Source: Victivallales bacterium (GTDB lineage Bacteria > Verrucomicrobiota > Lentisphaeria > Oligosphaerales > Oligosphaeraceae). From it: a DNA stretch of 35,352 nucleotides. Location of the stretch: contig JAFRLI010000116.1 in the NCBI GenBank assembly GCA_017431255.1, positions 1 to 35,352 on the forward strand. The letters are read 5' to 3'. Made by a program: the position numbers and the translations under genes. Under the pieces are notes generated by a model. That model saw only the letters and a program-made list of their open reading frames with translations. It ran no database searches and was not told the DNA's origin. Below, piece by piece: positions 10,967 to 35,267 of this stretch (its first letter is position 1; every line of letters starts with the position of its first letter).

Positions 10967-13900
10967 ATGACAAATGATACTATCCTCCAAGTAGAAATCT
11001 CCGCGGCACCTGCCATCAATCTGGCGTTGTTGCTGAGTGGCGCCCGCGTCATTCACGAAATCCGCCTCAAAAATCTGACGGACGCACCCGTGAAGAACAT
11101 CCAGTGCCAACTTTCCACGACACCGATGTTTGTGGAGCCGGCAACATTCCTGCTGGATTCTCTCGAAGCGGGCCAGGAGGCAACCCTGGGCGATTTGGAG
11201 GTCAAACTCGACTACGCGGCGCTCGTCGGACTTGCCGATGCCATGCCCGCGCAGTATATCCTGAATGTCCTTGCGGACGGGGAACCCGTCGGCTCCGCCC
11301 GCCAGGACTTTACCGCCTACAGCGCCGACCAGTTTCTTGGCATCAACAATTACCCCGCCTCAGTCGCCGCGTTCGTGACGCCCAATATGGACGTCATTTC
11401 CCGCCTCCTTGCCGATGTTCGAACTGAACTCAAGGCCGCAACGGGGAACGACGCCATCGTCGGCTATCAGAAGGATCGCGACCGCGTCTACGAGACATGC
11501 GCGGCCGTGTATCGTGCCGTCCACAACCTTGGAATCGGTTACGTCACGCCTTCGGTTTCCATGAACGTGCCTGGGCAGCATATCCGCCTGGCGGACAACA
11601 TCTACAAGTTTCGCCTCGGTTGTTGCCTGGACCTTTCCCTCCTGATCGCTTCAGTGCTGGAACTTTGCGGGCTGCACCCTGTGCTCATCATGATGCAGGA
11701 GCATGCTTTTGTCGCTTGTCACTTGCAGGATTACTACTTCACGGAGGTTCCGATGTTCGACCTCCAGAAAATCCGCAAGATGATTGATTTGGATGAACTC
11801 GTCGCCTTCGAGACCACGATGGTGACAGGCAATGCCACCTTTGAACAAGCTGTCCAAACGGTGATTCAGAATCAATTGGGGCATGAGAGCGAGTTTCTTT
11901 GCGCCATCGATGTCTGCCGTGCGCGCCTGGGCGGCGTTCGTTCGCTTCCCTTGCGCAAAACCGAGGACGGCGTGGAGTTCGTCCCGCCCGAGACCTTCGC
12001 CGAGCAACTCGCCGAGGAAGGACGACGCAAACTTCAGGAACGAATCGACCTCAACTCCCTCGAAATCTCCCGCCGAGGCGGCCGCGTCGCCCGCTGGCAA
12101 AGCAAACTGCTCGACCTCTCTTTGCGCAATCGCCTCCTCAATGTCCGCGCGTCCAAGCAAATTGTGCCTTTGTTCTGCACGGATGTCGCAACCCTCGAAG
12201 ACCAGATGGCTTCGGGACAGACGTTCTCCATCGGCAGCGTCCAGGAACTTTTGGACGAAAAGGAGGCCCGCGAGGTCGCCGCACTCCGTTTCCTCGAATG
12301 GCCTGCGCACACACGCGACCTCATCGCCAAGGAGTTCAAGCAAAAGCGCCTCTGGGCCGATGTCCCCCCAAAGGACCTTGCTTCGCGATTGACGGGCCTC
12401 CTCCGCCAGGCTAAGACCGATTTGGAGGAGGGCGGCGTAAACACTCTCTTCCTCGCCATCGGCTTCCTTGAATGGAAATCCTCCACCCGCGATAAGAAGT
12501 CCTATTTTGCACCGCTCCTTTTGATGCCGGTCTCCCTCAAGAGAAAAGCCATCGCAGACGGGATTAAACTCGAACGGCAGGACGAAGACACCATCGTCAA
12601 TGTCACGCTTCTCGAACTCCTGCGGCAGGAGCAGCACCTCGATATTCCGGGCCTCGACCCGCTCCCCATGGATGAACATGGCATTGACGTGCCGCGCGTC
12701 CTCCAGATCTTCCGCGAAGCCGTCAAAAACCTTTCTGGCTGGGAGGTCCACGAGGAGATTCGCCTGGGGCTGTTCTCGTTCAACAAGTTCATTATGTGGA
12801 ATGACTTGGTGAACCGTATTGATGAACTGCGGGGGCACGCGCTGGTGAATCACTTGATCGAAGGCAAGTCCATGTTTGAGGATGGAGTGGAGGTATTCCC
12901 GCCCGAGGAGGTGGAATCCAACATCACGCTGGAGGAGTTGTACTGCCCGATGACGGCGGATTCTTCGCAATTGGCAGCAGTACTGTATTCCGAGCGAGGG
13001 AAGAGTTTTGTTTTGCACGGACCTCCTGGCACGGGAAAGTCCCAGACCATCACGAACATCATTGCGCACAACCTCGCGAAGGGGCGTCGCGTTCTGTTTG
13101 TCTCTGAAAAGCGTGCCGCACTGGATGTGGTGCACCGTCGTCTCTCGAAAATCGGTCTCAAGCCGTTCTGCCTCGAATTGCACTCCAACAAGGCTGGAAA
13201 ATCCGAGGTCCTGGCGCAGTTTGCGGAGGCCATGGCGATGACGAATCCAGGCACCATTCCCCAGGACTGGAACCGCACTTCCGCGGAATTGCGCTCCGTC
13301 ATGGAGCAGTTGGCCGCCTACCTGAAGGTGCTTCATCATCGCTATCCCAACGGGCGAACCGCATATCTCTGCATCTCCGACGCACTTTCTCACCAGGAAT
13401 ATACTCCGCGTCCTGAACTTGTCCAGGTCGATACGCTCCAGCAGTCCCGCGACGACTATGAGGCCACGTTCCCCCTCCTCGATAAACTCGTCTCCTCCTT
13501 CGCAGAACTCCCGCCAGGCAAGGACCCACACCACCTCTGCGCACTCAATCCCGCAGACTGGAACCCCCGCCTCGAACAGCAAATCCTTTCCACAGCAGAC
13601 GCTCTTGCACAACGTACTTCCTCGCTTCGCAAGGCATTTACCAATGCATGCGAGGTCTTGCAGTTGCCCGTCGGCAAGGAAACTTTGGGACGCGTGGAAA
13701 CTTTGCGCGGCATTGCGGTAAAATTGGCCTCGCCGCTGCCGAGGCGGTTGTTTGCACCTGCCTGCCGGGACGCGCAGGAGTTCCTGCGGCAATTCATCGC
13801 AAACCAGATTGCCATGCAGCAACTGGAATCGCGGTTGGGTTCCTATCAACTTGATGTCTTGGCGGGATTGGATTGCGATTCCATCGAAAGACGACTCCGT

Positions 13901-16222
13901 GAAAATGCCTCCAAGTTTATCCTGCTGAGGTTCTTTGCTAACCGTTCCCTCCTACAGGAACTCGCTTCGCTGAAAAAACTCGGTGCCGCCAAACTTACCG
14001 TCGAAGAACTGCAGAAAATCCTTCCCGACGCCAAGCAATACGTCCAACTCCGCAAGGAACTCCAGAACACCACCTCGCAGGCTACCGTACTTCTGGGAGA
14101 TGCCTTCCAGCCCAGTCATCCCGATTGGGAGAAACTCCAGCGTGACCTTGAGCAGGCGTGGCAGGCTGTGGACGCCGCACGTTCCTTCGCGGCACTCACC
14201 CCCGAAGCCGCAGCGCAACTGCCGTTTGTTTCGGCACAGGATTCCGCTTCGGCAGAAAACAAACTGGGAAAAGCGTTGGACGCATTCGCTTCTTCCCGCG
14301 ACGCTTTCGCGCAATTCGCCAGCACTCTGGCAGAGGCGAAGGAACTCGCGCCGTTGGAGGATACGGCGCGCACAATTGCGGGCTGCGGCGGAAACCTGCG
14401 CGTCATTTTTGCGTATTTGCGATGCCGCCAGGATGCCCTCGCCGTTCACCTCGAAAAGGCGGCACGACTCCTCGAAGAGCGCAAGACTGCGGCCGAACAA
14501 CTCTCCGGCATCTATCGCGCCTCCTACAATCGCGCCATGCTCGACAGCATCCTCGAGGCTTCCCCCACTCTCGGCAACTTCATCGCATCCGCAGAAAACG
14601 ATTCGATTCGACGATTCTGCCAACTGGATGACCATTATACTGCACTCGCGCGCGAGGTCGTCATCTCCAAAATCCTCCAGAAACTGCCGAGCCTTACCAA
14701 GATGTCCCCAGCCGAGCAATACCAATACGGTGTCCTCAAGCATGAATGCGGCAAAAAGACACGCCACAAGCCCGTTCGTCAATTGCTCGAATCGGCAAAG
14801 GACATCATGCTTCAACTCAAGCCCTGCTTCCTCATGAGCCCGCTTTCCGTTGCCCAATATCTCCCTGCGGATGGCGCCACGTTCGACCTCGTCGTCTTCG
14901 ATGAAGCCTCCCAGATCCCCGTTTGGGACGCCGTGGGGGTCATTGCGCGCGCCAAGCAGCTCATCGTCGTCGGCGACCCCAAGCAAATGCCTCCCACCTC
15001 CTTCTTTCAAAAAGGCGATACCGCCCCCGAAGACGAGGACGACTTCGAGGACCAGGAGAGCATCCTGGACGAAACCCTCGCCGCCGGCGTACACTCCTCC
15101 TACCTCAACTGGCATTATCGCAGCCGACACGAATCCCTCATCGCCTTCAGCAACCACTACTACTACAACGACCGTCTTTTCACATTCCCGGCCGCCCGCA
15201 ACAGCGAACATCTCGGCGTTCATTTCCATTTCGTTGCCGACGGTCTCTACGAACAGCGCAAACGCACCAATCGCCGCGAAGCCGAGGCAATCGTCGATTA
15301 CATTCTCGAACGATTCTCCAATCCCGCTACCAGCGGCAAAAGCATGGGCGTTGTCACCTTCAGCCAGGCCCAAAAAGACCTCATCGAAGACATTCTGGAC
15401 GAACGACGCGCGGCACGCCCGGAACTCGACCGATTCTTCGACGAGGAGGCGGAAGACCCCTTCTTCGTGAAGAACCTCGAAAATGTCCAAGGCGATGAGC
15501 GTGACGCTATCCTGTTCTCCATTTGCTATGCGCCAGACGCGAACGGGAAGTTCATCATGAACTTTGGCCCGCTCAACCGCGATGGCGGTGAGCGGCGCCT
15601 GAATGTCGCCATTACGCGTGCTAAGGAAGAAGTGGTGGTGTTTTCTTCCATCCATGGATACCAAATTGATTTGGAGCGCACGGGAGCGCGCGGTTCTGCG
15701 CACCTGCGCTATTTCTTGGATTATGCGGAGCGTGGTCTTGCAGTCGAGCGTGCGGCAGTCGCTACGGAAGCGGATGGGCTTTGCGATACGGTGGCGTCCT
15801 TCCTGGAGAAGAACGGCTGGCATGTCGAACGCAACATCGGCTGCTCTGGATTCCGCATCGATTTGGGCGTTCGCGACCCTGAACATCCTGACAACCATCT
15901 GCTCGGCATCGTTTGCGATGGTCCTGCCTACGCCTCCCAGAAAACCGCCCGCGACCGCGACCACACCAGCACCTCTGTTCTGCAATCGCTCGGCTGGCGC
16001 CTCTACCGCCTCTGGAGCGTCGAATGGCTCTACGATCGCGCGCGCGCCGAGGCGGAACTTCTCGCGGCTCTGGACCGTGCTGTGAAAAAGCAGCCTGAAC
16101 CCGTCGCCGCGCCTCTCACTCGACCCGCACCGGCGCCCGTCGTCGCAACTCCGGCACCCGCGCTTCCTTCTGCACCCGTTGCACAGGCGTCCTCTTCCCC
16201 TCTCCCACCACCCAATTTATAG
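10967..16222 (+). CDS. Transglutaminase-like / DUF4011 / SF1 helicase / Vsr-like nuclease protein
   Basis: 1751 residues. The N-terminal ~350 residues carry a transglutaminase-like core with GCCLD (Cys219/220) and MQEHAF (His246), perhaps structural. The DUF4011 signature RWQSKLLDLSLRNRLLNVR is at 376-394. SF1 helicase motifs follow: Walker A GPPGTGKS 685-692, Walker B DEASQ 1312-1316, GDPKQMPP from 1336, ENVQGDERD, and RRLNVAITRA from 1543 (Arg1551). A long helical insertion separates motifs I and II. Residues about 1607-1700 match the Vsr-like MTES_1575 nuclease fold (FRIDLGV, CDGPAY at 1650-1655, YRLWSVEWLYD). The last ~50 residues are Pro/Ala-rich. The DUF4011-helicase-Vsr order has been catalogued as an antiphage gene (Hhe, from memory). 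It stands alone, with a poor ribosome site at 10967. Domain calls are firm; the defence role is inferred. Confidence 0.9.
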   Translation: MTNDTILQVEISAAPAINLALLLSGARVIHEIRLKNLTDAPVKNIQCQLSTTPMFVEPATFLLDSLEAGQEATLGDLEVKLDYAALVGLADAMPAQYILNVLADGEPVGSARQDFTAYSADQFLGINNYPASVAAFVTPNMDVISRLLADVRTELKAATGNDAIVGYQKDRDRVYETCAAVYRAVHNLGIGYVTPSVSMNVPGQHIRLADNIYKFRLGCCLDLSLLIASVLELCGLHPVLIMMQEHAFVACHLQDYYFTEVPMFDLQKIRKMIDLDELVAFETTMVTGNATFEQAVQTVIQNQLGHESEFLCAIDVCRARLGGVRSLPLRKTEDGVEFVPPETFAEQLAEEGRRKLQERIDLNSLEISRRGGRVARWQSKLLDLSLRNRLLNVRASKQIVPLFCTDVATLEDQMASGQTFSIGSVQELLDEKEAREVAALRFLEWPAHTRDLIAKEFKQKRLWADVPPKDLASRLTGLLRQAKTDLEEGGVNTLFLAIGFLEWKSSTRDKKSYFAPLLLMPVSLKRKAIADGIKLERQDEDTIVNVTLLELLRQEQHLDIPGLDPLPMDEHGIDVPRVLQIFREAVKNLSGWEVHEEIRLGLFSFNKFIMWNDLVNRIDELRGHALVNHLIEGKSMFEDGVEVFPPEEVESNITLEELYCPMTADSSQLAAVLYSERGKSFVLHGPPGTGKSQTITNIIAHNLAKGRRVLFVSEKRAALDVVHRRLSKIGLKPFCLELHSNKAGKSEVLAQFAEAMAMTNPGTIPQDWNRTSAELRSVMEQLAAYLKVLHHRYPNGRTAYLCISDALSHQEYTPRPELVQVDTLQQSRDDYEATFPLLDKLVSSFAELPPGKDPHHLCALNPADWNPRLEQQILSTADALAQRTSSLRKAFTNACEVLQLPVGKETLGRVETLRGIAVKLASPLPRRLFAPACRDAQEFLRQFIANQIAMQQLESRLGSYQLDVLAGLDCDSIERRLRENASKFILLRFFANRSLLQELASLKKLGAAKLTVEELQKILPDAKQYVQLRKELQNTTSQATVLLGDAFQPSHPDWEKLQRDLEQAWQAVDAARSFAALTPEAAAQLPFVSAQDSASAENKLGKALDAFASSRDAFAQFASTLAEAKELAPLEDTARTIAGCGGNLRVIFAYLRCRQDALAVHLEKAARLLEERKTAAEQLSGIYRASYNRAMLDSILEASPTLGNFIASAENDSIRRFCQLDDHYTALAREVVISKILQKLPSLTKMSPAEQYQYGVLKHECGKKTRHKPVRQLLESAKDIMLQLKPCFLMSPLSVAQYLPADGATFDLVVFDEASQIPVWDAVGVIARAKQLIVVGDPKQMPPTSFFQKGDTAPEDEDDFEDQESILDETLAAGVHSSYLNWHYRSRHESLIAFSNHYYYNDRLFTFPAARNSEHLGVHFHFVADGLYEQRKRTNRREAEAIVDYILERFSNPATSGKSMGVVTFSQAQKDLIEDILDERRAARPELDRFFDEEAEDPFFVKNLENVQGDERDAILFSICYAPDANGKFIMNFGPLNRDGGERRLNVAITRAKEEVVVFSSIHGYQIDLERTGARGSAHLRYFLDYAERGLAVERAAVATEADGLCDTVASFLEKNGWHVERNIGCSGFRIDLGVRDPEHPDNHLLGIVCDGPAYASQKTARDRDHTSTSVLQSLGWRLYRLWSVEWLYDRARAEAELLAALDRAVKKQPEPVAAPLTRPAPAPVVATPAPALPSAPVAQASSSPLPPPNL

Positions 16223-20174: not shown

Positions 20175-21503
20175 CTATCGGGATTGTGCAGCGTGCATCA
20201 GTTCTTCTGCTCGGTAGGAACTTCGAACCAGCGGACCGCAGGTTGCTTTTTGAAAATGATACTCCGTCTCGGCGATGGTCTGCCATCGCGAAAACTCCTC
20301 TGGCGAAACCATTCGCGACACTGGCCAATGTGCATGGCTGGGACTCAGGTACTGTCCCAGCGTCAGCAAGGACACCCCGGAGTCTCGTAAATTCGAAAGC
20401 GTCGCGCGAACTTCGCATTCCGTCTCCCCCAGTCCCAGCATCAGACCCGACTTCACGCAGGCACCGCGTTCCGCGGCATGCGCCAGGACCGCCAGGCTCC
20501 GCCGATAGTCCGCGCGATTGCGGACCGCAGGTGTCAAGCGCTCGACGGTTTCCACGTTGTGTCCGAACACTTCCGGCAAGGAGCCGAGAACCACGTCCAC
20601 GCTCTCCAGGTTCCCTGCATAGTCCGAACAGAGAACCTCTACGCTGGGATGTCCTTGCAACGCGTGAATGGCGTGCACCGTGGCCGCCATTTGCGCGGCT
20701 CCGCCATCGGGCAGGTCATCTCGCGTGACGCAAGTCACGACTGCATAGCGCAGTCCGAGTTCTTGCACGCTGCGGGCGACGCGGGACGGTTCGTCGCTTT
20801 CGACAGGAGAGGGGATTCCGTGCGGAACTGCGCAGAAGCGGCAGTCTCGCGTGCAGTGGTTTCCAAGGATGAGGAATGTCGCGGTACGATGTCCCCAGCA
20901 TTCCGCGCGGTTCGGGCAGTTTGCGCTCTGACAGACCGTGTGAAGTGCGCCCTGCGTCAGGCTTGCCTGGACGGATTGCAGAACGTTTCCTGTGGGAATC
21001 GCGGAGCGTATCCATTCAGGAAGTCGAAGGGGAGGGCGGCGGTGGCTTTGCAACCAATCCCGCAACGCGCCAAGTTCCGTAGCGTTTACGTCTTCGACGG
21101 CGATGACGGCGCTGTCCAGCAGGAACTGCACGGCGTTGCGGTCGGCGGGTGCCAGGTCGAGGGCGGCCATTTCGTCGGGCGTAAACCAATCGGCGAACTG
21201 CCCCTCGCGGGGACGCGGTACCTGATGCTCTCGCAGCAGGCAGTGCATGAAATGCAACCGAATGGTCTTGCCAGGATACTCATGGCGCAACGTAAACACC
21301 TCGTGCGCCGATGACAGCCGCAGACCCAGTTCCTCCTCCAATTCCCGCTGGATGCATTGCTCCGATGTCTCGCCTGCTTCCCTCTTTCCGCCAGGAAACT
21401 CCCAACTGCCCGCCAGGTGACTTCCTGGACGACGCGTCGCGAGTAAAAGGCGGTCGCCCGACAGGACGACCGCCGCACAAACTTCAAGGACGTTCGACGT
21501 CAT
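20175..21503 (-). CDS. lipA: Nudix hydrolase (MutT-like) fused to lipoyl synthase
   Basis: 442 residues in one uninterrupted frame. Residues about 5-135 are a MutT-type Nudix domain with a complete Nudix box at 39-61 (GX5EX7REUXEEXGU fits every position), as in enzymes that hydrolyse 8-oxo-dGTP or similar nucleotides. Residues about 155-442 are lipoyl synthase, a radical-SAM enzyme inserting two sulfurs into octanoylated proteins: auxiliary-cluster cysteines C191, C196 and C202, radical-SAM CX3CX2C at C217, C221 and C224, and the C-terminal RSSYRA (427-432) whose serine ligates the auxiliary cluster. All catalytic residues of both halves are present. I chose the ATG at 21503; a TTG codon lies just before it. 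It follows the Pal-like gene by 6 bp. No lipB or lplA is in the window. Confidence 0.92.
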   Translation of the reverse strand: MTSNVLEVCAAVVLSGDRLLLATRRPGSHLAGSWEFPGGKREAGETSEQCIQRELEEELGLRLSSAHEVFTLRHEYPGKTIRLHFMHCLLREHQVPRPREGQFADWFTPDEMAALDLAPADRNAVQFLLDSAVIAVEDVNATELGALRDWLQSHRRPPLRLPEWIRSAIPTGNVLQSVQASLTQGALHTVCQSANCPNRAECWGHRTATFLILGNHCTRDCRFCAVPHGIPSPVESDEPSRVARSVQELGLRYAVVTCVTRDDLPDGGAAQMAATVHAIHALQGHPSVEVLCSDYAGNLESVDVVLGSLPEVFGHNVETVERLTPAVRNRADYRRSLAVLAHAAERGACVKSGLMLGLGETECEVRATLSNLRDSGVSLLTLGQYLSPSHAHWPVSRMVSPEEFSRWQTIAETEYHFQKATCGPLVRSSYRAEELMHAAQSR

Positions 21504-21509
21504 CAAAGA

Positions 21510-22340
21510 CTACTTCTTGTCCCCAATCAGGAACTGACCACGACGATTCAGGCGATACTCGGATTCGCTCGTGGGACGCGCCACAACGGGCTTGTCTTCG
21601 CCGTAGCCAATCGTCATCATGCGGTTGCGTGCCACGCCCATGTTCGCAATGTAGTCACGCAGCGCCATCGCACGGCGCTCGGAGAGCGAGCGGTTGTATT
21701 CTTCCGTTCCGCGCTGGTCGGTGTGACCTTCGATCACGAGAACCTTGTTCGGATTCGCGGCCAGGAATGCTGCCACAGCGTCCAGAACGGGGCGTTCGGA
21801 AGCACGGATGTCGCTCTTGTTGAAGTCGAAGTAGACGCGGTCGCTCCAGGTCTGGGCGGTTCCGTTCGCCAGGAAGTTCTGCGCTGCGGAGTCCAGTGCC
21901 ACTGCGGCACCCATCTGCTGCCAGGCACCACCATTGGCACCACCGTCTGCGCCGTAGGCACCGTTCGCGCCGTAGGCACCGTTCGTGCCATAGGCACCGT
22001 TCGCGCCATTTGCGCCGCCATTCGCGCCGTAGGCACCGTTCGCGCCATTTGCGCCGCCATTCGCGCCGTAGGCACCGTTCGCGCCATTTGCGCCGCCGTT
22101 CGCGCCGTTGAAGCCGTTGGGATCATTCCCTGCACCGGGCACGAAGGGTTGCGCACCGAAGTTGTTGGCGGTGAAAACAGGAGCGTCATTGGAGTTGAGA
22201 GCGGTGGCGGGACCAACGCCGCCAGCACCGTTTCCGCCTTCGCGCAGGTTGCTCAGGTTCAGTTTCGGCTTCTTGGCGCAGCCCACGGAAATCAGGGCGG
22301 CAATGGCGGCGGTGGACAGGACTTGCAGGACTTTGTTCAT
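21510..22340 (-). CDS. Pal/OmpA-family peptidoglycan-associated lipoprotein with repeat linker
   Basis: 276 residues from the ATG at 22340, chosen because AAGGAAA lies upstream and a lipoprotein signal (ending LISVGC, Cys21) follows; the open frame to 22532 is not needed. Three parts are visible. The lipidated N-terminus is followed at 78-138 by a low-complexity linker made of Asn-Gly-Ala/Tyr units, with a 13-residue unit (ANGANGAYGANGG) repeated about three times. From about 165 comes the OmpA C-terminal domain, VYFDFNKSDIR and IEGHTDQRGTEEYN (203-216), then SLSERRA, which binds peptidoglycan. This is the Pal arrangement that tethers the outer membrane to the wall. tolA and tolB are not nearby. 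The gene lies 40 bp after the zinc-ribbon gene and 6 bp before the Nudix-LipA gene. Confidence 0.92.
   Translation of the reverse strand: MNKVLQVLSTAAIAALISVGCAKKPKLNLSNLREGGNGAGGVGPATALNSNDAPVFTANNFGAQPFVPGAGNDPNGFNGANGGANGANGAYGANGGANGANGAYGANGGANGANGAYGTNGAYGANGAYGADGGANGGAWQQMGAAVALDSAAQNFLANGTAQTWSDRVYFDFNKSDIRASERPVLDAVAAFLAANPNKVLVIEGHTDQRGTEEYNRSLSERRAMALRDYIANMGVARNRMMTIGYGEDKPVVARPTSESEYRLNRRGQFLIGDKK
21927..22109 (-). repeat. In-frame 39-bp tandem repeat inside the Pal-like gene
   Basis: About 180 bp coding for Asn-Gly-Ala/Tyr units. The clearest period is 39 bp (13 residues), present about three times between about 21990 and 22109, with shorter 12-bp sub-units at the end facing the OmpA domain. 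The copies are nearly identical at DNA level, so copy number probably varies between strains and changes the length of the tether. Confidence 0.85.
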
Positions 22341-22380: not shown

Positions 22381-24519
22381 TTAGGAAATATCGTTGAGAG
22401 GTTTGGCATTGTTGAGGCACCCGGCGCTGACAATGGCGTCCTTGAGCCAGTTTGCCAGTTTGTCGGCACCTTCGGCATTGAACTGCTTCCAATCGGCCAT
22501 CCAGCGTTTGAAGGCAGTTTCGTCGAACGCATTGCAGTAGGTCTTGGCGTCCACGAGTATGGTTCCGGCGGCGTTGGCGGCCTTGCGGAGGCTTGCGGTG
22601 GCGGAATCCAGGTTGGCGGCCAAGGATGGTTCTTCGCAGGAAATGGGTTGCGGCAGCCAGCAGACGACCTTGACGCCCGCCTCTGTCAGCGCCTTCAGCA
22701 GCGCCTCCGTGTCAGCCGCGAGTTTTTCAGCATAGGCAGTGGATTGTTCGGGAGACTTGGGCCATGCCAAAGCGTCGGCGAAGACTGCAGAGAAGATGAC
22801 CACTTGCGGCTTGAACGGCAGCACATCACGCTCCAGGCGCGACAGGCAGAGCGCCGTTGTCGAACCTGAAATCCCTGCATTGACGACGCTGGTTGCCCTG
22901 CAGCGCTCCTGCAGTTTCTCTGCCAGGCGCACGGGCCAACTGGTCGCTATGTCTTCGGTTGACAAGGTGAGTTCATCACCGAGGCAGACCACACGTGCGG
23001 TCGCCGTGCTGGTCTGGGCGATGACTTCCTCCGTGATTCGGGCAGGAGGAGGTTCCTGCCAGTTTCCCGCTTTGGGGATGTAGATGACGGGGCGCTTGAT
23101 ACTGTCGAGTTCCGCGTCGGTGCGGATTGTCTGGTCGAGTTTTTTGCGGATGCAGTCTGCGCAGAGGGTTGGGAGCGGTTCAGCGCCGAGTTCAGCGCGG
23201 AGTTGCTGATGGCTTCCCACGAAGAAGGTCTTTCCGCAATCGGAGCAGGTCACTTCTTTGCTGGAGTGCTCCGCGAGGTACTGCTTGCAGTGTTCGCAAC
23301 GGCGTGGCTTGGGCTGGAGGCCTGCCGTCTGGTCGTGCAGTTGCTCCTCCTTGGAATACGTCCAAGTGTGCTTGCAACCCTGCTCGCAACATGGCATTTC
23401 CTGGTCTTGCAGCGTTTCGATTTTCTTTCGGCAATCCGGGCAGAAATGGGTTGGAGGATGTACGCGGTTTTTCGCCTTTGCCTCTACTTGCATGGAGCGG
23501 GACCAGGTCCAGGTGTTCTTGCACGCATGGTTGCGGCAGGGCAGTTGCACGTCTTTCGTACCATTGAAGAACGCAAAGCACGTTTCGCACATCCGATACG
23601 GTGGCGGGGGCACGGGCAATTCGTCCAAAATGCTCTTCTTTTTCGGCGGCACCTCTGGCTTTGCCTCCGCAGGCGCGGGAGCGGGAGCCTCCTCCGTTGC
23701 GGGGGCATTTTCGGCTGGCGTTTCCGGTGTTTCCGCTACGGGTGCGGGCTCCGCAGGCTTTTCCGCCTTTTCCGCCTTGGGATAGTCGGCAGGAGTTTTT
23801 CCCGCGGCGATGGCCTTGACAATTTGCTCGACCTGATCCATCGGGTTGTAAGTCCAGGTGTTTTTGCAGCCGTTGACGCGGCATGGCACCTCGATGGGCT
23901 TGAGTTCCCGAAAGATTTGGAGGCAGCGGTTGCACATGCGCAGTGGCGGTTTGTCGAGGGAAAGACCTGCCTTGAGGTGTTCCAACTGCTGGTATCGTGT
24001 CCAGGTAACCGTATGGTCGCAACCGCTGATGCGGCATTTGAGTTCCGTATCGTGCAGGGTATTGAGGGTATGGTAGCATTCGTCGCAGAGGCGGTGTGGT
24101 GCGCTTGCGCCGTTGAGTTCCATCTGTGCGCGTGCCGTGAGGGTCCACGTGTTCTTGCAACCCTTCAAGCGGCAGGGGACCTGGATGTCCTGAACGGATT
24201 CCATCTCCTTGCGGCATTTGTCGCAGAAACCGCGCGGCGGCGTAGTGTGTCCCAGCATCTGCGATTCCAACTGCTTGATGCGTGTCCAGACCCACGTGCC
24301 GTCGCAACCAGGCTTCGAGCACGGAACCTCCTTGTCCTCCAAGGTCTGATACTTCGCATAGCATTCATCGCACATCAACTTGGGACGCGATTGACCATGC
24401 GCCGCCGTGAACATCGCACGTTCCCCGCTGATGTGCACATGGTTTTTGCAGCCACGTACACGGCACGGGATATCCTGCTGCGGAAGAAAGTCACCAAAAC
24501 TGCCCAGACTGTCGCTCAA
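22381..24519 (-). CDS. Eight zinc-ribbon repeats plus degenerate SGNH-hydrolase domain
   Basis: 712 residues, start TTG at 24519 with an AGGAG 7-8 bases upstream; no signal peptide. Residues 17-460 hold eight repeats of about 46 residues, each with a CX4C (CX2C in the last) and a CX2C: C19/24/50/53, C67/72/99/102, C116/121/145/148, C162/167/196/199, C213/218/311/314, C328/333/360/363, C377/382/408/411 and C425/428/453/456. Between the pairs sits a conserved 'cKnTWT..r.QlE' helix-like stretch. The last repeat resembles the probable zinc-ribbon family zf-trcl. Repeat 5 carries a Pro/Ala/Glu-rich insertion (about 245-305). Residues 508-697 have the SGNH fold, but GDS is GDE (514-516), the GXND block is AVFAD, and the DXXH motif is replaced near FNAEG (680-684), so no catalytic triad remains. 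Function unknown; binding nucleic acid, protein or metal is possible. Confidence 0.85.
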   Translation of the reverse strand: MSDSLGSFGDFLPQQDIPCRVRGCKNHVHISGERAMFTAAHGQSRPKLMCDECYAKYQTLEDKEVPCSKPGCDGTWVWTRIKQLESQMLGHTTPPRGFCDKCRKEMESVQDIQVPCRLKGCKNTWTLTARAQMELNGASAPHRLCDECYHTLNTLHDTELKCRISGCDHTVTWTRYQQLEHLKAGLSLDKPPLRMCNRCLQIFRELKPIEVPCRVNGCKNTWTYNPMDQVEQIVKAIAAGKTPADYPKAEKAEKPAEPAPVAETPETPAENAPATEEAPAPAPAEAKPEVPPKKKSILDELPVPPPPYRMCETCFAFFNGTKDVQLPCRNHACKNTWTWSRSMQVEAKAKNRVHPPTHFCPDCRKKIETLQDQEMPCCEQGCKHTWTYSKEEQLHDQTAGLQPKPRRCEHCKQYLAEHSSKEVTCSDCGKTFFVGSHQQLRAELGAEPLPTLCADCIRKKLDQTIRTDAELDSIKRPVIYIPKAGNWQEPPPARITEEVIAQTSTATARVVCLGDELTLSTEDIATSWPVRLAEKLQERCRATSVVNAGISGSTTALCLSRLERDVLPFKPQVVIFSAVFADALAWPKSPEQSTAYAEKLAADTEALLKALTEAGVKVVCWLPQPISCEEPSLAANLDSATASLRKAANAAGTILVDAKTYCNAFDETAFKRWMADWKQFNAEGADKLANWLKDAIVSAGCLNNAKPLNDIS

Positions 24520-24689
24520 GGAAGGTCTCCTGCTTGCTTTACCAAAATCCCCTGCCTATGATGCAGAGGGACAAAAACACAACTTCTTAAAAAACATAAT
24601 TGCCAAACCCAAGATTGCAACCCCAAACTACACTTTTCCTCACCATTTTCTCCCCTTTTTTATATTGCCGCGCCAATTGATATCACCAA

Positions 24690-25025: not shown

Positions 25026-26771
25026 TTGAGTAATTTCATAACGCGCTTTTTCAAGAAATTGTTTGGAGGCGCCAGTCAGGAAGTGGAGCAGGAGCCCCCT
25101 GCGCAGGAAACCGTACAAGAAGAGGCGGTGTATTTGCCGTCAGAGGGAAAGCGTCGTCGCAACGACTATGAAGGCAGTCCACTGACACGAAGCAAGGAAA
25201 ATCGGCGCGACCGCAATTCGCAAAAGCCACAACGCCCCGAACGCGAAAAAAACGTTGCGGCCAAACCGCCGCAGAACAATGCGCCGAAGCCCCCAAAACC
25301 ATCAAAACCGAAACGGGACAATGCGCCGAAGCCGCCGACGGAAAAGGAATCTTCGGGGAAGGGGATCGAGCGCGAGAAGCGGCGCGAATTGCCGTCGATG
25401 GAAGGCTGGGAGATTCCTGCGGGAGAGCGTCGTTCGGCAGACGAGGTATTGTTCCAGGACTTTGCGCTGGACGCGAGGATTTTGCGTGCGGTCTTGGAAG
25501 AGATGGGGTTCCGTGCGTGTTCCCCGATTCAGGCAAAGGCGTTGCCGCATACGCTGAAGGGCGAAGACCTCGCTGGACGCGCACAGACGGGCACTGGCAA
25601 GACCGCGGCCTTCTTGATCACCATACTGCAACATTACCTCGTAACACGCGATTCCGATGATCGAGACCCCTGGCAGCCTTTCGCCATGATTCTCGCTCCT
25701 ACCCGCGAACTCGCCATCCAAATCGCAAACGACGCCGAGAACATCGCAGCCTTCTGCCCCGAGTTCAAAATCGTCGCCGTCTACGGCGGGATGGACTTCG
25801 ACAAGCAGATGACCTCCCTCTCCCAAGGCGTCGACCTCGTCGTCGCCACGCCAGGACGTCTCATCGACTATCTGCACCGCCACGCCGTCAATCTCTCCAA
25901 AGTCTCCATCGCCGTCATCGACGAGGCGGACCGCATGCTCGACATGGGGTTCATCCCCGATGTCAAACGCATCTTCGGATACCTTTCCGAACCCGAAAAA
26001 CGCCAGACGATGCTCTTCAGCGCGACCCTCACCAAGGAGATTATGCAACTGGCCGCGCAGTGGATGCGACCCAACCCCACCATCGTTGAAATCGAACCGG
26101 AACATGTCCTGGCAGAGGGAATTGAGGAAACCACCTATGCCGCCACCACCGACCAGAAAGTGCCGATTATCCTCTGGACCCTCGCACATGAAGACTGCCG
26201 ACGCGTCCTCATCTTCCGCAACCGCAAGCGCGATGTCGAAGCCCTGGCAAACCTCCTGAAGTCCTGCGGAATCTCCTGCGAGATGCTCTCGGGGGATGTC
26301 GAGCAGAAGAAACGACTACGCATTCTGGAGGATTTCCGGACGGGGCGCACGCGAATCGTCGTCGCCACGGATGTTGCGGGACGCGGCATTCACGTGGATG
26401 ATGTCACGCATGTCATCAACTACGATTTCCCGTACGAGGCAGAGGACTATGTCCATCGCGTGGGACGAACGGCGCGCGCGGGCCACAAGGGACGCGCCAT
26501 CAACTTTGCAGACGAAGACAGTTCGTTCGTCATCCCCGAAATCGAAACCTTCATCGAACGCCCTCTGCCCATCACGCACCCCGAGGACGAGTTGCTGGAA
26601 GTACCGCCGACGCTCAAGCAGGCATTGGCGCGTGGACAATTCCACGAGAGCCACAACCACAGCGGCGCATTTGCCAATCGCGGCGGTTTCTCGAATCCTT
26701 CGTCAGGCAATCGTGGTGGTTTTGGAGGGCGTGGTGGATTTGGGAATCGGCGGCACGGTCCTCGTCGGTAG
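25026..26771 (+). CDS. DEAD-box ATP-dependent RNA helicase (RhlE/RhlB-like)
   Basis: 581 residues. Unwinds or remodels RNA in ribosome assembly, mRNA decay or cold adaptation. The first ~125 residues are basic, Pro/Lys-rich and disordered, followed by the helicase core: Q motif CSPIQA (165-170), AQTGTGKT (186-193), PTREL (225-229), TPGR, DEAD (299-302), SAT (332-334), and a C-terminal lobe with TDVAGRGIHVDD and YVHRVGRTARAG. The final ~35 residues are Gly/Arg/Phe-rich (repeated GGF), an RNA-binding tail. The start is TTG at 25026, supported by AGGAG at 25013-25017 with 8-base spacing and by the lack of another Met before residue 125. The TrmH-like gene starts 15 bp downstream, so the operon looks RNA-centred. 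Confidence 0.96.
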   Translation: MSNFITRFFKKLFGGASQEVEQEPPAQETVQEEAVYLPSEGKRRRNDYEGSPLTRSKENRRDRNSQKPQRPEREKNVAAKPPQNNAPKPPKPSKPKRDNAPKPPTEKESSGKGIEREKRRELPSMEGWEIPAGERRSADEVLFQDFALDARILRAVLEEMGFRACSPIQAKALPHTLKGEDLAGRAQTGTGKTAAFLITILQHYLVTRDSDDRDPWQPFAMILAPTRELAIQIANDAENIAAFCPEFKIVAVYGGMDFDKQMTSLSQGVDLVVATPGRLIDYLHRHAVNLSKVSIAVIDEADRMLDMGFIPDVKRIFGYLSEPEKRQTMLFSATLTKEIMQLAAQWMRPNPTIVEIEPEHVLAEGIEETTYAATTDQKVPIILWTLAHEDCRRVLIFRNRKRDVEALANLLKSCGISCEMLSGDVEQKKRLRILEDFRTGRTRIVVATDVAGRGIHVDDVTHVINYDFPYEAEDYVHRVGRTARAGHKGRAINFADEDSSFVIPEIETFIERPLPITHPEDELLEVPPTLKQALARGQFHESHNHSGAFANRGGFSNPSSGNRGGFGGRGGFGNRRHGPRR

Positions 26772-28333: not shown

Positions 28334-28460
28334 GTCTCTATGATAGGGGCATTGTGCCTATGCCATTTGATGGGAAAGAGGGTGGGATGGCGGCGGCGTT
28401 CGTTTGAATGTAAACAATTGAATCATAAGAATCAGCAACAAACAATTGAAAGGAAAGCCC

Positions 28461-31400
28461 ATGAAAAACAACGTTTCTTCTTGGTCTCGTGTGTTGCGCG
28501 GGATGTGGAAAGCCGGTATGGCGTGCCTGCTGGCCATTGTCTGCATTCATGCTGTGTCAATGGATCTGAGAGCCGACGATGAAGCTGGTTACGTCACGTA
28601 CCCCGTCCAAAATGCCTTTTATCGACAGGATTCCGACACTTTCGCCATCAAAATACACCTCAAACCCAGTGACTTCGAGGCCACAGGCTTCCATTTTTAC
28701 CTCTCCCAGTACTATTACGATGAGGAAGAGTCCGCCGTAAAGAAGAGTGGTAAATTGGGTGCACATTTCGAAACGGATCCTTCGGTATTATCCGACCAAG
28801 GCGATGGCTTTGTCCTCAAGGATAATTTTAATGAAATGGATGTCAAGTGGACGGAGTTGGGTTTCCCGGGCCATTATTACTACTACTTTAAAGTAGAGTT
28901 ATCGGGCGCGACATCCACGGTATACGAGGGCGATTTCTACTTCGCAGAAACCGACGATGTCTGCGACGCCGGTGAAATCATCCGCGATGGCGACGACCCG
29001 AATGAGGAACTTGACATCTACCGCCCGGGCACTACCACCATCTCCGCCAACTGGGATCCGTTCACCGAGGACAACTTCCTCCCCGCCGCTGCGCGCTACG
29101 AGGTCATCTGGGCAGACCCGGACAACGAGGAAAATGTCCTTGCTACCGCCGAAACCACCGAAACCTCTGCCTCCGCAGAGGTCGAACTCGTGGATGGCGA
29201 CAAATGGTTCGTCACCGTCAAGGCTTATGACGCCAACGGCGTCATCCTTGCAACCGCGACTTCCAATGGATTCACCGCTTACCTGGACGTGACACCGCCC
29301 ACCGTCACCTCCGTCCTCGATGAAGGCATCACTGGCAGTTTCTCCACCCTCACCGCCTCCTGGGAGGCCACCGATGACATTGGCGTCACTGGCTACCGCT
29401 ATCGCCTCATCGAGAACCCCAACTCCCTCGAATGGATCGCCGATGAAGGAGAACTGAGCACCGCTCGCGACAGTTACGGCACCGTCGTGGTCGATGGTAC
29501 GATCTACATCATCGGTGGTATGGACGGCACCAGCGTCCTTGACACGGTCGAAACCTATGACCCCGAAACAACCTCCTGGACTACCCTTGACGCCACCCTC
29601 AACACAGGACGCGCCGACTTCGCAACCGCTACCACCGCCGATGGAACCATCTACGTTTTCGGCGGCTATGACAATGAAGGCAACATCGTCGACACCATCG
29701 AGGCATACGCCGATGGTGCCTGGACTGTCTGCGAGACCCCGTTCCCGGAGGAAGTCGGTGGACTCGTCGGCGCACAGGCCATCGCTGTTGCTGACAACCT
29801 CATCTGGATTTTCGGCGGCTACGACGCCTCCTGGAATCTCATCACCGCCGTCTACGAGTTTGACACGGAAGCGGGAACCATCACCCCCGTCGAAGGCGTC
29901 AACCTCTCCAAGGGACGCTCTAACTTCCAGGTAATCCTACAGAAACGCGAGGAGAGCAACTGCATCGTCGTCGCCGGTGGTCTGGACGAAACGGGAGCCG
30001 CCCTCTCCAGTATTGACATCCTCGATGTCACCAACGCCTCTGCATCGTCAATTAACATGGATACCGCCCGCACCGCCTTCGCGCTCGTTACTGTCCCCGC
30101 CGTCAGCGACTCCAATTTGGAGGACGTCCTGCTCATCGGTGGCCAGGACGCCAACGGCGCTGCCCTCGATACCGTCTACCGCGTCTCCGCAACCGGCAAT
30201 GGCGAAAAACTCACCGCCACGATGACCACTCCGCGCGCCTCCTGCGCTGCCATCTGGCTCTCCGCCTGCAACCAACTCCTCGTTATTGGTGGCGTTGACA
30301 GCGAAAGCAATCCGCTTGCCACCACCGAAACCGCTCCGGCGGATGGCTCCGTTTGGACGGAGGCCTCCAACCTCACCGCCGAGACCGGACGCTTCGGCAA
30401 CGCAGTCGCCCTCGTCGGTCTTGACGCCGACGAGACAATCGTCACGTACGGCGGTTTCTCTGGTGGGGACTTCACCACTACCACCGAGCACCGTCTCGTC
30501 ATCGAGGTCATCCAGGATTGGACCGAGACCACTGAGAAGTCCGTTACTATCACCGACCTCGATCTCATGGACGGCGCGATCTACATCTTCCAGGTCGAAG
30601 CCTCCGACGAAGAGGGCAACGTCTCCACAGTCGCCTCCTCCGCCGGCGTCACGATCGATGGCACCTACGAGATGATCGTCCTCTCCTGCGACTACTTGGA
30701 GGACGGCATGGAGACCATCCGCCGCACCTACACGGTCAACGTCTCCAAGCTGAACGAATCCTACGATGTCGTTTCCTACAGCTACACCCTCACGTGCGAC
30801 AACACCGAAGTCGCCTCCGGCACCGATTGCGCTCTCGACACTCCGATCGAGATGCAGGGTCTGGAGAACGTCGGGGCCTACGTTCTCACCGTCAAGGGCA
30901 AGAACGGCGAAGAAGTCGAACAGCAGAAGGACACCACCCTCTCCTGGACCGTCACCATGCCGGCAATCGAAGTCGAAGAAGACACCCTGCCTGACGATGG
31001 TGCGGTCGTCACCGAGAATATCCCCTGTGGCTTTAATGTGTCCTCCGATGTGACGAAGCTTGGTATCCTCGTCTACTTCCCGGAAACCGAGGAAGAAGAG
31101 CCGGATTGGAGCAAGGGACTGGAGGTGTCCGTCTCGGATGGGTATTACTATACCAATCTGGACCTCCATCCGAACTATGATCCGAAGAAAGCCGTCTGCA
31201 TGTTCCGCGCCATCTACACCGACGAGGTGCTCGGGGACATCTACAGCGAAGTGATCTCCCGCACTTACACTGTTGTGAAGAAGTGTGTGGACCTTGCCTT
31301 CAACCCTGAAATTGAAGAAGGTTGCCTCACGGCTACCGACGAACTGACCGTTACGGTCACCGACCATACCGGCGCGGGTCTCGTCACCACCTACAGCTAC

Positions 31401-34400
31401 ACGGTCACCAAGGACGGAGAAGACTACGTTTCCGAGGACGATATCGACATCGACGAACCCATCGAACTGACCGCTCTCGAAGCAGGCGAATATGTCCTCT
31501 CCGTCACGGGCGAAGGCGTCGAAGAACCCGAGACGTTCACCTTCAACGTCGTCGCAGCCACTTTCGCCTCCTTCTCTCCCGAGGTTGACGAACCCACCAC
31601 CGAGACGGACTTCACCGCCACCGTCAACCTCAATGGACTGGCTTCCTACAAATATCAGATTGACGACGGCGAAATCGTCGAAGTTACTGCGGCCGAGGGC
31701 GAGGAAATCGTCCTGACCTTCGATGTCACGGGACTCTCCACCGGACTCCACACCGTCAACCTCTGGGGCGTTGACTCCTACGGTTACGAGCAGACGGTGC
31801 CCACGGTTCAGGAAATCCAGGTCAAGAACGACATTCCTTTCGGCGATCGCCTGACCGCCACCATCACATCCGATAGCCCCTCCGTCCAGGACACCGAAAC
31901 GGCCTCCTTTACGGTGACCTTCAGCGAGGAAATCATGGCGGCACCCGCCATTTCAGCCTTCATGGTCACCAACGGCACCGTCTCCGAGGTGAGCAGTTCG
32001 GAGGACGGTTACACGGTTTCCGTTACGCCCGACGCACTCGCTGAAGGCGTCAGCAGCCAGAAACTGGAGTTGAGCCTCCTGGCAAACCAAGTCTACAGCA
32101 AAGCGAAGGGTACGGGCAACGCCGCCTCCAATACTGCTTCCATCCTTGTCTATGGCGAGGATCCCCTCCTCGCCTTCTCCTTGTCTGCCTTTGCAGTGGA
32201 CCAAGATACCCTCGTCCCCAACTGGGAACAGCCAATTGATGACGAATACCCTGTTTACAAAGGCGATTATTTCGCGGTCCTGGTCAGTGCCAGCACGCCT
32301 GACGCATTTGTCGGCGGCGAAGTCAAACTGGCTTTCGATTATAGCCGCTTCACCCTCGTGGGCCCACGGCTTGACGCCACCAAGCCGCTGGACAAGGAGA
32401 ACTTCGACGTCAATACCGCCGTCCTGGCCCCCTACAACAACGACGGCACGGAAAACGATCTCTCGCTCACGAGTGCTGACCTCGCCAAGGACGAAGGGGA
32501 TATCACCGCAGTCTCCATTTCGGGTATGGCAATCCTCAAAGGTGCCAATGGCAAGAAGGTCGTTGAGACTTCGGAAGATGGCGCCTACTTCTACTTGGTC
32601 TTCCAGGCACACAAGGAAGACGGTGCGGAGGACACGGATTTCACCCTCGAGGCGGGAAGTGGCAACCTCTACCTGAAGGATGCCGACCTCCTTGTCAATG
32701 GCGACACCTGCATCGACTACGGCGAGCCGATGGAAATCGTGGTTGCAGCGCATAAGTCCACTCTGAGAATTAGTGGCCCGGAACAGGTCAACATCGGGGA
32801 TGAAATCATGGTGTTTGTTGAAAACGACGTAGAACGCGAGGAAGACCTCGAAATCACTCTCAAATACACCATCGGCAGTAAAACGACGACTCTTGAACCC
32901 GTCACTCTCGAAGCCGGCGAATCCTCCTCCGACCCCGTCGTCTTTGTCGCTCCCGGCACCCCCGATACTGCAGATTACAAGTTGAAGCTTATGTTTAAGA
33001 GCGTATCTCCCAGTACCAAGATCGCTTCCAAGAAATCCTATATCATCAAGGTCAAAAATGCATTCGCCACTCTGACGCTCACTACAGATACCGCCTCCGT
33101 CATAAAGGGTGAAAACTTGCTAGTGACCCTAACTCTCAGTCAGGCACTTGCTGAGGATATCAATGTCACGCTTACCACCACCATCGGCGGTACCACTGAA
33201 GAATGCGGTAGCGTCACCATCGCTGCTGGAGAGACATCTGCAGATTTCAATTACCAGGTTCCCGATGACATGAAGGTAACAGGAGATTCGACCATTACCT
33301 TTAACCCCGTTTGTGAAAACCGCTACATCTCGGATTGCATTGGCGCGGATGTCACCATTGTAGACCAGTATTGCCAGGACATCTCGCTTGCATTCAGTGA
33401 CGGGGAGATCGAGGAAGGCCAAACCTCAACCCTCGTCGCGTCCTTGCCCCAAGGCATCACCGCCGGCGAGGACCTTGAGTTCACGATGGATGTCTCCAAA
33501 GGCTCTGCTGTCTACGGCACCGATTTCATCCTCAGCGACACCATTGCCATACCCAAAGGCCAAAACTCCGCCACCGTTACGCTCACTTCCTACGATGACG
33601 GCGGAGACTATGGCAATAAGGAAGCAATGGTTTCCCTCACCGCTATGACCTGCGGCGGTGTCACTTACGATAACTTCACCCCAGTCACCGCCAGCCTTGT
33701 CATCAGGGATAACTTTGTGAAACCTGGTGACTTCGATGGCAATGGCGTAATTGACTACCAAGACTATGTCAATCTCACCTCTCAGTTTGGCATTGCGGCG
33801 GGAGATCCGGATTTTGATCCTGTCTACGACCTCTATCCCGATGGCGTCATCGACTACTATGACTACGTCGTCTTGACGAGTATGATGGACGAGGAGACTC
33901 GTGGCGAGCAGTTCCGCGCTGGCGAAGTCGCTACCATCCATCTGATGACAGACAAAACCATCATTGAGGTCGGTCAGGTCTTCCATCTCTACATCTACAT
34001 GGCAGTGAACTCCGAAGAGAAAGGTGTCCGTGCCTACAGTGTCAATGTCCACTTCGGAGAGAACGTGGCGGTTGACGGTTCGTTTGACGTAGCCAACTAC
34101 CTGCAAGGCGGACTCACCTATGTTCCCAATGGAACGCTGAGTGACGGCGCCATCATCCAGTTGGGTGGCTCCATCAATCCGGCGGACAACACTTATGCCA
34201 CTACCGTGGGCCTCCAAAACTCGGATACCCTCGTCGCCGCCATCCCGTTTGTGGCGACCAAGCCTGGCAAGTCGGAACTTTCCATCCGGAATCCTCTCAT
34301 CGGCATCAAAGGCGTTGCTCTCTCTGGTGACAGTGTGATCAACGAGGATGTACTTTCCATCGAGGTCATTGAGGCGGGAAGCGAGTTCCTGACGGCCATC

Positions 34401-35267
34401 CAGACCCAGTACGACTCCGGCATGCGCAGCGTCGAACCGAACGATGAACTCATCTTCGGTATGGCGGGCGAGGCCTCCGCCACCCCGAAGGGACCGGTCT
34501 TCCCCGGCATCTATTCCCTGTCGTTCAAGGGCGGCCTCAGCAAGGATGTCCGCGAAATCGCCGACAGTGCGACCTGGACCGTCAACGCGACCGTCCCCGC
34601 CGGCGCAACCCTGACTCTCGACTGGTCCAAGTCCGCCTCCAACCAGGATGATGTCTACTCCATGCCGACCACGTACATCTTCTCCATCGCCAATGGCGAC
34701 GAGGCAAAGGATATGCGCGAGACAACCAGCATCCTCCTCGACAATGCGGGCGGCAAGTCGGAACAGGCCTTCACTCTTGACATTACGGTCACGAAGCGCC
34801 CGGCACCCGCCTACAGCCTGACCATTCCGCTCACACCTGGCTGGAACCTCATCGGCGTCCCGTGCGTCCTTGACGAGGAATCCAACGCAGCCATCGCCGC
34901 GATGGACTACCAGGTCTGGCTCCCCGAATCCCAGGCCTACGTCAGCACTGGCGAGACCACCTTCGCGCCTGGACAAGGCGTCTGGCTCTTCGCGGAAACT
35001 GCCTCCACCATCACCCTCAAGGGCGAGTATGCAGAGTCCACTGACGTTCCGCTCGTCCAGGGTTGGAACCTCGTCGCTCCCATCGCCGACAAGGACAACA
35101 CCCCACACTTCAATCCCACCAAAGGCTCCACCACCATCCCTGAAGTCTGGTACTGGACGTCCACGGGCAACAAGCGCCTCCTCGATGACGAGGAGTGTGT
35201 CATCGGCAGAGGCTACTGGCTCTATTCCAACAAGAACCAGACCCTCCAACCCAAAACAAATCCCTAA
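28461..35267 (+). CDS. Giant secreted multidomain protein (FN3, Kelch, cohesin-like, Calx-beta-like, dockerin)
   Basis: 2268 residues from the ATG at 28461 (AAAGGAA upstream). A signal peptide ends near residue 40 (LRA-DD). In order: an unidentified beta domain (about 45-170), an FN3-like domain (about 190-275), and a second FN3-like domain whose halves lie near 290-325 and 675-735, separated by a seven-bladed Kelch propeller (seven GG motifs, about 330-670). Ig-like modules follow (about 735-1235, the last a Big-type), then a cohesin-like domain (about 1235-1430), two Calx-beta-like domains (about 1533-1750), a dockerin-like pair (1757-1800) with DFDGNGVIDYQD as a complete calcium loop and a degenerate second loop, a second cohesin-like domain (about 1822-1970), and a C-terminal pair of 'GWNL...GxWL' repeats (about 2120-2260). 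No LPXTG or PEP-CTERM anchor is visible. It is probably surface-associated adhesion or scaffold material; substrate unknown. Confidence 0.85.
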   Translation: MKNNVSSWSRVLRGMWKAGMACLLAIVCIHAVSMDLRADDEAGYVTYPVQNAFYRQDSDTFAIKIHLKPSDFEATGFHFYLSQYYYDEEESAVKKSGKLGAHFETDPSVLSDQGDGFVLKDNFNEMDVKWTELGFPGHYYYYFKVELSGATSTVYEGDFYFAETDDVCDAGEIIRDGDDPNEELDIYRPGTTTISANWDPFTEDNFLPAAARYEVIWADPDNEENVLATAETTETSASAEVELVDGDKWFVTVKAYDANGVILATATSNGFTAYLDVTPPTVTSVLDEGITGSFSTLTASWEATDDIGVTGYRYRLIENPNSLEWIADEGELSTARDSYGTVVVDGTIYIIGGMDGTSVLDTVETYDPETTSWTTLDATLNTGRADFATATTADGTIYVFGGYDNEGNIVDTIEAYADGAWTVCETPFPEEVGGLVGAQAIAVADNLIWIFGGYDASWNLITAVYEFDTEAGTITPVEGVNLSKGRSNFQVILQKREESNCIVVAGGLDETGAALSSIDILDVTNASASSINMDTARTAFALVTVPAVSDSNLEDVLLIGGQDANGAALDTVYRVSATGNGEKLTATMTTPRASCAAIWLSACNQLLVIGGVDSESNPLATTETAPADGSVWTEASNLTAETGRFGNAVALVGLDADETIVTYGGFSGGDFTTTTEHRLVIEVIQDWTETTEKSVTITDLDLMDGAIYIFQVEASDEEGNVSTVASSAGVTIDGTYEMIVLSCDYLEDGMETIRRTYTVNVSKLNESYDVVSYSYTLTCDNTEVASGTDCALDTPIEMQGLENVGAYVLTVKGKNGEEVEQQKDTTLSWTVTMPAIEVEEDTLPDDGAVVTENIPCGFNVSSDVTKLGILVYFPETEEEEPDWSKGLEVSVSDGYYYTNLDLHPNYDPKKAVCMFRAIYTDEVLGDIYSEVISRTYTVVKKCVDLAFNPEIEEGCLTATDELTVTVTDHTGAGLVTTYSYTVTKDGEDYVSEDDIDIDEPIELTALEAGEYVLSVTGEGVEEPETFTFNVVAATFASFSPEVDEPTTETDFTATVNLNGLASYKYQIDDGEIVEVTAAEGEEIVLTFDVTGLSTGLHTVNLWGVDSYGYEQTVPTVQEIQVKNDIPFGDRLTATITSDSPSVQDTETASFTVTFSEEIMAAPAISAFMVTNGTVSEVSSSEDGYTVSVTPDALAEGVSSQKLELSLLANQVYSKAKGTGNAASNTASILVYGEDPLLAFSLSAFAVDQDTLVPNWEQPIDDEYPVYKGDYFAVLVSASTPDAFVGGEVKLAFDYSRFTLVGPRLDATKPLDKENFDVNTAVLAPYNNDGTENDLSLTSADLAKDEGDITAVSISGMAILKGANGKKVVETSEDGAYFYLVFQAHKEDGAEDTDFTLEAGSGNLYLKDADLLVNGDTCIDYGEPMEIVVAAHKSTLRISGPEQVNIGDEIMVFVENDVEREEDLEITLKYTIGSKTTTLEPVTLEAGESSSDPVVFVAPGTPDTADYKLKLMFKSVSPSTKIASKKSYIIKVKNAFATLTLTTDTASVIKGENLLVTLTLSQALAEDINVTLTTTIGGTTEECGSVTIAAGETSADFNYQVPDDMKVTGDSTITFNPVCENRYISDCIGADVTIVDQYCQDISLAFSDGEIEEGQTSTLVASLPQGITAGEDLEFTMDVSKGSAVYGTDFILSDTIAIPKGQNSATVTLTSYDDGGDYGNKEAMVSLTAMTCGGVTYDNFTPVTASLVIRDNFVKPGDFDGNGVIDYQDYVNLTSQFGIAAGDPDFDPVYDLYPDGVIDYYDYVVLTSMMDEETRGEQFRAGEVATIHLMTDKTIIEVGQVFHLYIYMAVNSEEKGVRAYSVNVHFGENVAVDGSFDVANYLQGGLTYVPNGTLSDGAIIQLGGSINPADNTYATTVGLQNSDTLVAAIPFVATKPGKSELSIRNPLIGIKGVALSGDSVINEDVLSIEVIEAGSEFLTAIQTQYDSGMRSVEPNDELIFGMAGEASATPKGPVFPGIYSLSFKGGLSKDVREIADSATWTVNATVPAGATLTLDWSKSASNQDDVYSMPTTYIFSIANGDEAKDMRETTSILLDNAGGKSEQAFTLDITVTKRPAPAYSLTIPLTPGWNLIGVPCVLDEESNAAIAAMDYQVWLPESQAYVSTGETTFAPGQGVWLFAETASTITLKGEYAESTDVPLVQGWNLVAPIADKDNTPHFNPTKGSTTIPEVWYWTSTGNKRLLDDEECVIGRGYWLYSNKNQTLQPKTNP

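Follow-up and report, generated by a model that had tools for sequence, protein, structure and literature searches.

The window analysed here, a stretch of 35,352 nucleotides from a Victivallales bacterium, carries at positions 22381-24519 of the minus strand a gene for a 712-aa protein consisting of eight zinc-finger repeats followed by a pseudo-SGNH domain. Both the position and the strand given for this open reading frame in the first-pass annotation are correct. The gene starts with a TTG codon (24517-24519, minus strand) and has a good ribosome-binding site, an AGGAG Shine-Dalgarno sequence (24527-24531, minus strand) 7 nt ahead of the start. No signal peptide or hydrophobic segment was seen in the 712-aa protein, and its sequence suggests a cytoplasmic location. 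Downstream, at a distance of 40 nt, lies a Pal/OmpA lipoprotein gene (21510-22340, minus strand), in which a long GGANGANGAYGANG repeat separates the lipoprotein signal from the OmpA domain. It is followed by a gene (20175-21506, minus strand) encoding a NUDIX (MutT-like) domain fused to the lipoyl synthase LipA; in the relatives this pair is either fused or encoded by two adjacent open reading frames. A DEAD-box helicase gene (25026-26771, plus strand) is divergent from the target gene. The window also contains two very large open reading frames of 1751 and 2273 aa (10967-16222 and 28446-35267, both plus strand). Many relatives share the gene order target gene, pal, MutT/lipoyl synthase, and the other neighbours vary. 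A function based on an operon was rejected, since only pal and MutT/LipA recur widely and the pairing with the DEAD-box helicase is not conserved.

Seven repeats show a CX4C…CX2C pattern, all on the minus strand: repeat 1 (24361-24465, Cys19/24/50/53), repeat 2 (24214-24321, Cys67/72/99/102), repeat 3 (24076-24174, Cys116/121/145/148), repeat 4 (23923-24036, Cys162/167/196/199), repeat 5 (23578-23883, Cys213/218/311/314), repeat 6 (23431-23538, Cys328/333/360/363) and repeat 7 (23287-23391, Cys377/382/408/411). An insert of about 60 residues rich in Ala, Pro and Glu (residues 244-306; 23602-23790, minus strand) interrupts repeat 5; it is predicted with a pLDDT below 50 over residues 250-287 and is absent or short in most homologues. 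Repeat 8 (23152-23247, minus strand, Cys425/428/453/456), which is zf_Tbcl-like, shows a CX2C…CX2C pattern. The eight cysteine quartets reported earlier are thus borne out: seven open with CX4C, the eighth with CX2C, and every one closes with CX2C. All 32 cysteines are invariant in 29 homologues sharing 30-52% identity with the query, and the quartets therefore do not arise by chance. In addition, Trp, Arg, Gln and Pro are conserved between the cysteine pairs. The metal held by the quartets is presumably zinc.

Comparison with the zf_Tbcl profile (PF13451) gave repeat 8 a score of 25.5 bits in the genome search (cut-off 24) and 19.9 bits in the whole-protein search, and none of repeats 1-7 scored above the cut-off singly. 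Similar to zf_Tbcl, repeat 8 is built of CX2C, a QQL helix and CX2C, whereas repeats 1-7 use CX4C and the eight units stand in tandem. Since the last repeat scores in the genome search as zf_Tbcl, a 'probable treble clef' domain, the name 'zinc ribbon' used earlier is not the best term for these repeats. CX4C knuckles are nothing unusual among zinc fingers at large. The AlphaFold2 model of the full protein has a mean pLDDT of 84.9, mostly above 90 in the array and about 90 in the SGNH half, but the pTM of 0.46 indicates that the placement of the two parts relative to each other is not fixed by the model. Each modelled repeat consists of a strand, a CX4C turn, a second strand, a helix and a CX2C that opens a second helix. 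CX4C at the hairpin turn and CX2C at the helix N-terminus is the expected arrangement, and it is predicted in every repeat. The secondary structure of the repeats, modelled without metal, fits that of a treble clef, with no separate primary hairpin. A three-repeat fragment was predicted with a pLDDT of 94.3. Foldseek, which is weak on small zinc fingers, found no match of the array fragment in the PDB at E ≤ 0.001.

The C-terminal domain (residues 505-700; 22420-23007, minus strand) matches Pfam Lipase_GDSL_2 (PF13472) over residues 512-685 with an E-value of 9.8e-15, and its model resembles TesA-type structures, with fold matches to AlAXEase, E. coli TesA (TM about 0.8 on the target) and 4rsh (0.86). 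Thus the SGNH fold proposed earlier is supported by both profile and model. The domain shares with the TesA type the fold and block II, in which the NAGI motif is intact and the oxyanion Gly is retained, and its profile score lies above the cut-off. However, it differs from TesA-type hydrolases in lacking the Ser, the GxND Gly and Asn and the DxxH His, in being joined to a zinc array and in having no visible signal peptide. In block I (22972-22980, minus strand) GDE replaces GDS and the nucleophile is lost; in block III (22774-22791, minus strand) SAVFAD stands in place of GxND, with loss of the Gly and the oxyanion Asn; and in block V (22477-22494, minus strand) DWKQFN replaces DxxHPN, with loss of the His. 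The loss of the Ser, GxND and DxxH motifs noted in the first-pass annotation, with the fold-side block II kept, is therefore correct for the query.

The same loss was found throughout the family. Among 46 homologues the nucleophile position is occupied by Glu in 23, Asp in 18, Cys in 3, Ser in 1 and Gln in 1, so that the catalytic Ser is gone in 45 and replaced by an acidic residue in 41. The GxND Gly occurs in none of the 46 and the GxND Asn in 3, and the DxxH Asp and His are present in 16 and 4, respectively. Homologues with an intact triad, which would have contradicted the idea of a dead domain, were not found, as no member of the 46 has Ser, Asp and His together. By a simple motif scan, GDS and GxND are retained in most of the other SGNH proteins that these genomes encode, and several also have DxxH. 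Ten positions of the SGNH half (Asp515, Asn547, Arg561, Arg564, Asp565, Phe569, Ser577, Pro625, Asn681 and Gly684) are invariant in 29 homologues. Between close pairs, dN/dS ranges from 0.08 to 0.20 in the SGNH half and from 0.03 to 0.12 in the array, indicating that the dead domain is maintained rather than decaying. Gene decay was rejected on the family-wide triad loss together with these low values, and the sequence comparisons indicate a real protein family rather than a decayed gene. That the dead domain is under strong purifying selection also supports the earlier proposal of a binding module.

Of the 60 relatives sampled, 48 belong to the same order, and 46 of these have an array-carrying homologue, compared with 1 of the 12 from elsewhere; in the order of Oligosphaera it is present as a single copy per genome. 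Genome collections were scanned with two short peptide patterns, which distant homologues may escape; in a phylum-wide sample, 25 of 388 genomes matched, all of them of the same family or order. The named homologues belong to Lentisphaerota MAGs and to the isolate Oligosphaera ethanolica. No homologue was found in plasmid and phage collections, on which ground a mobile or phage origin was rejected, and a defence gene was likewise rejected for want of a meaningful PADLOC match. No family in Pfam, NCBIfam or PADLOC covers the whole protein, and no paper on the architecture or the family was found in a literature search that left subscription papers and preprints largely outside its reach. Both results agree with the earlier view that the family is undescribed.

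Outside the phylum, array homologues were found in 14 of 379 Myxococcota genomes sampled. The proteins L097-L100 (Myxococcota/Deltaproteobacteria) are 400-420 aa long and have eight repeats with the SGNH domain absent, and three of the longer Myxococcota homologues (L137-L139) have the full eight quartets. L140-L145 and L147 have fewer repeats, and some members carry RG-rich or long K/R runs. A FYVE match of one Myxococcota homologue was barely above the cut-off and was taken as a zinc-finger cross-match. The eight-repeat proteins (L097-L100, L137-L139) resemble the present array in repeat number and order, in the last CX2C and in a similar N-terminal GSL motif, but they have no SGNH domain and are unnamed and uncharacterised. 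Matching repeats 1-7 across the two phyla, the same order ranked 15 of 5040 permutations, and repeat 8 is distinct from the others in both phyla. Therefore, the array was inherited or transferred as a whole. The array probably stood alone first, as it does in Myxococcota, and the SGNH domain would have been added later in the Oligosphaera lineage. The array genes of L138, L139, L098 and L100 adjoin trigger factor-clpP-clpX or lie near clpX.

The start codon was compared between the target gene and its neighbouring open reading frames using one Shine-Dalgarno criterion for both. The target gene starts with TTG in 34 relatives, GTG in 7 and ATG in 3, with 3 unclear, counts that are not independent as the sequences are related; the neighbouring open reading frames gave 29 TTG, 29 GTG and 104 ATG. 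A non-ATG start (TTG or GTG) is thus found in 41 of 44 homologues, spanning most families of the order. No Rfam match was found in the window, and ungapped anchoring of the relatives revealed no conserved leader upstream beyond the ribosome-binding site. An RNA leader or riboswitch was accordingly rejected as the cause of the TTG start. One may speculate that the non-ATG start reflects low or autoregulated expression.

A precedent for an SGNH domain kept after loss of its triad is the OSK domain of Oskar, for which RNA-binding evidence has been presented (PMC8662646) and which has been included among RNA-binding domains (PMC9487903). Oskar keeps the triad-less SGNH fold for binding and has it fused to an N-terminal module of a different kind (PMC8662646, PMC7250577). 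The present protein likewise combines an SGNH-fold domain without its triad with a separate N-terminal module, but Oskar is an insect protein with a LOTUS domain where the zinc fingers stand here. The Pfam OSK profile matched none of 21 family members, so the parallel would be one of function, not of descent.

Based on these results, the protein is best classed as a binding protein, and it probably works by binding, perhaps to RNA, rather than by catalysis. Our preferred reading, to which we give a probability of roughly 0.4, is a cytoplasmic, single-copy, non-enzymatic RNA- or RNP-binding protein of the order containing Oligosphaera. With its eight Cys4 zinc fingers the array would offer multivalent binding; the SGNH domain at the C-terminus, its triad lost, would be retained as a second binding surface. 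The likeliest ligand would be RNA or a ribonucleoprotein, for example ribosomal or messenger RNA. The array may provide affinity and reach, and the pseudo-SGNH domain specificity or a protein contact, like OSK in Oskar. RNA is proposed because of the Oskar precedent, the RG-rich or polybasic tails of some array homologues and the mild positive charge of the array, whose net charge averages +10, compared with -8 in the SGNH part. However, the query array, at +5, is nearly neutral and has no RG tails, the conserved neighbours pal and MutT-LipA give no hint of RNA, the unmatched OSK profile confines the Oskar likeness to function, and the non-ATG start comes without a conserved leader. The more specific proposal, that array and dead SGNH domain jointly grip ribosomal or messenger RNA as an independent bacterial parallel of Oskar, with the conserved UUG start keeping expression low, is doubtful.

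A protein-protein scaffold or adaptor, in which zinc fingers and inactive SGNH domain alike would serve as docking sites for proteins involved in folding, proteolysis or envelope assembly, is a possible though tentative alternative. Zinc fingers and pseudoenzymes frequently serve as protein adaptors. The array gene adjoins trigger factor-clpP-clpX in two Myxococcota genomes and lies near clpX in two others, and the target gene precedes pal in the Oligosphaera relatives, which is consistent with such a role. However, the neighbours vary between the phyla and within Myxococcota, and the basic or RG-rich tails point towards nucleic acid. A DNA-binding protein, namely a regulator or nucleoid protein that uses its tandem fingers on duplex DNA, is unlikely. 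Tandem arrays often read DNA, and C2H2 DNA-binding arrays are among the weak hits that the array gave in profile and Foldseek searches, but none of these was significant at E ≤ 0.001, the fingers are not C2H2 and the array is only mildly basic.

It is improbable, too, that the SGNH half has remained enzymatic through a rebuilt active site, in which the acidic replacement of the Ser would bind a metal or catalyse another reaction together with Asp515, Ser577, Asp582, Asn547 and Arg564. Although the replacement is non-random and Asp515, Asn547, Arg561, Arg564, Asp565, Ser577 and Asn681 are invariant, the losses extend to the His and to both GxND residues, Gly and Asn, and the query deviates at several otherwise near-invariant sites such as Cys662 (usually Phe) and Asp666 (usually Gly). 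A zinc store or sensor, with the 32 cysteines holding eight zinc ions for buffering, is very improbable: the eight predicted sites and the gene for ArsP_2 (a putative heavy-metal exporter) upstream of the array gene in Myxococcota (L098 and L100 by Pfam, a similar open reading frame in L099) would fit it, but the residues conserved between the cysteine pairs (Trp, Arg, Gln and Pro) and the fixed order of the repeats suggest a structured array, and no metal gene recurs beside the target gene in the Oligosphaera relatives.

Given that the gene occurs order-wide as a single copy under strong purifying selection, without a full-length family name, it probably has a basic role in these bacteria. 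The family provides a bacterial instance, alongside Oskar OSK, of an SGNH domain kept after the loss of its triad, and it allows the question whether the SGNH fold is prone to turn into a binding domain. The array-only homologues of Myxococcota are a natural control against which the contribution of the dead domain can be judged.
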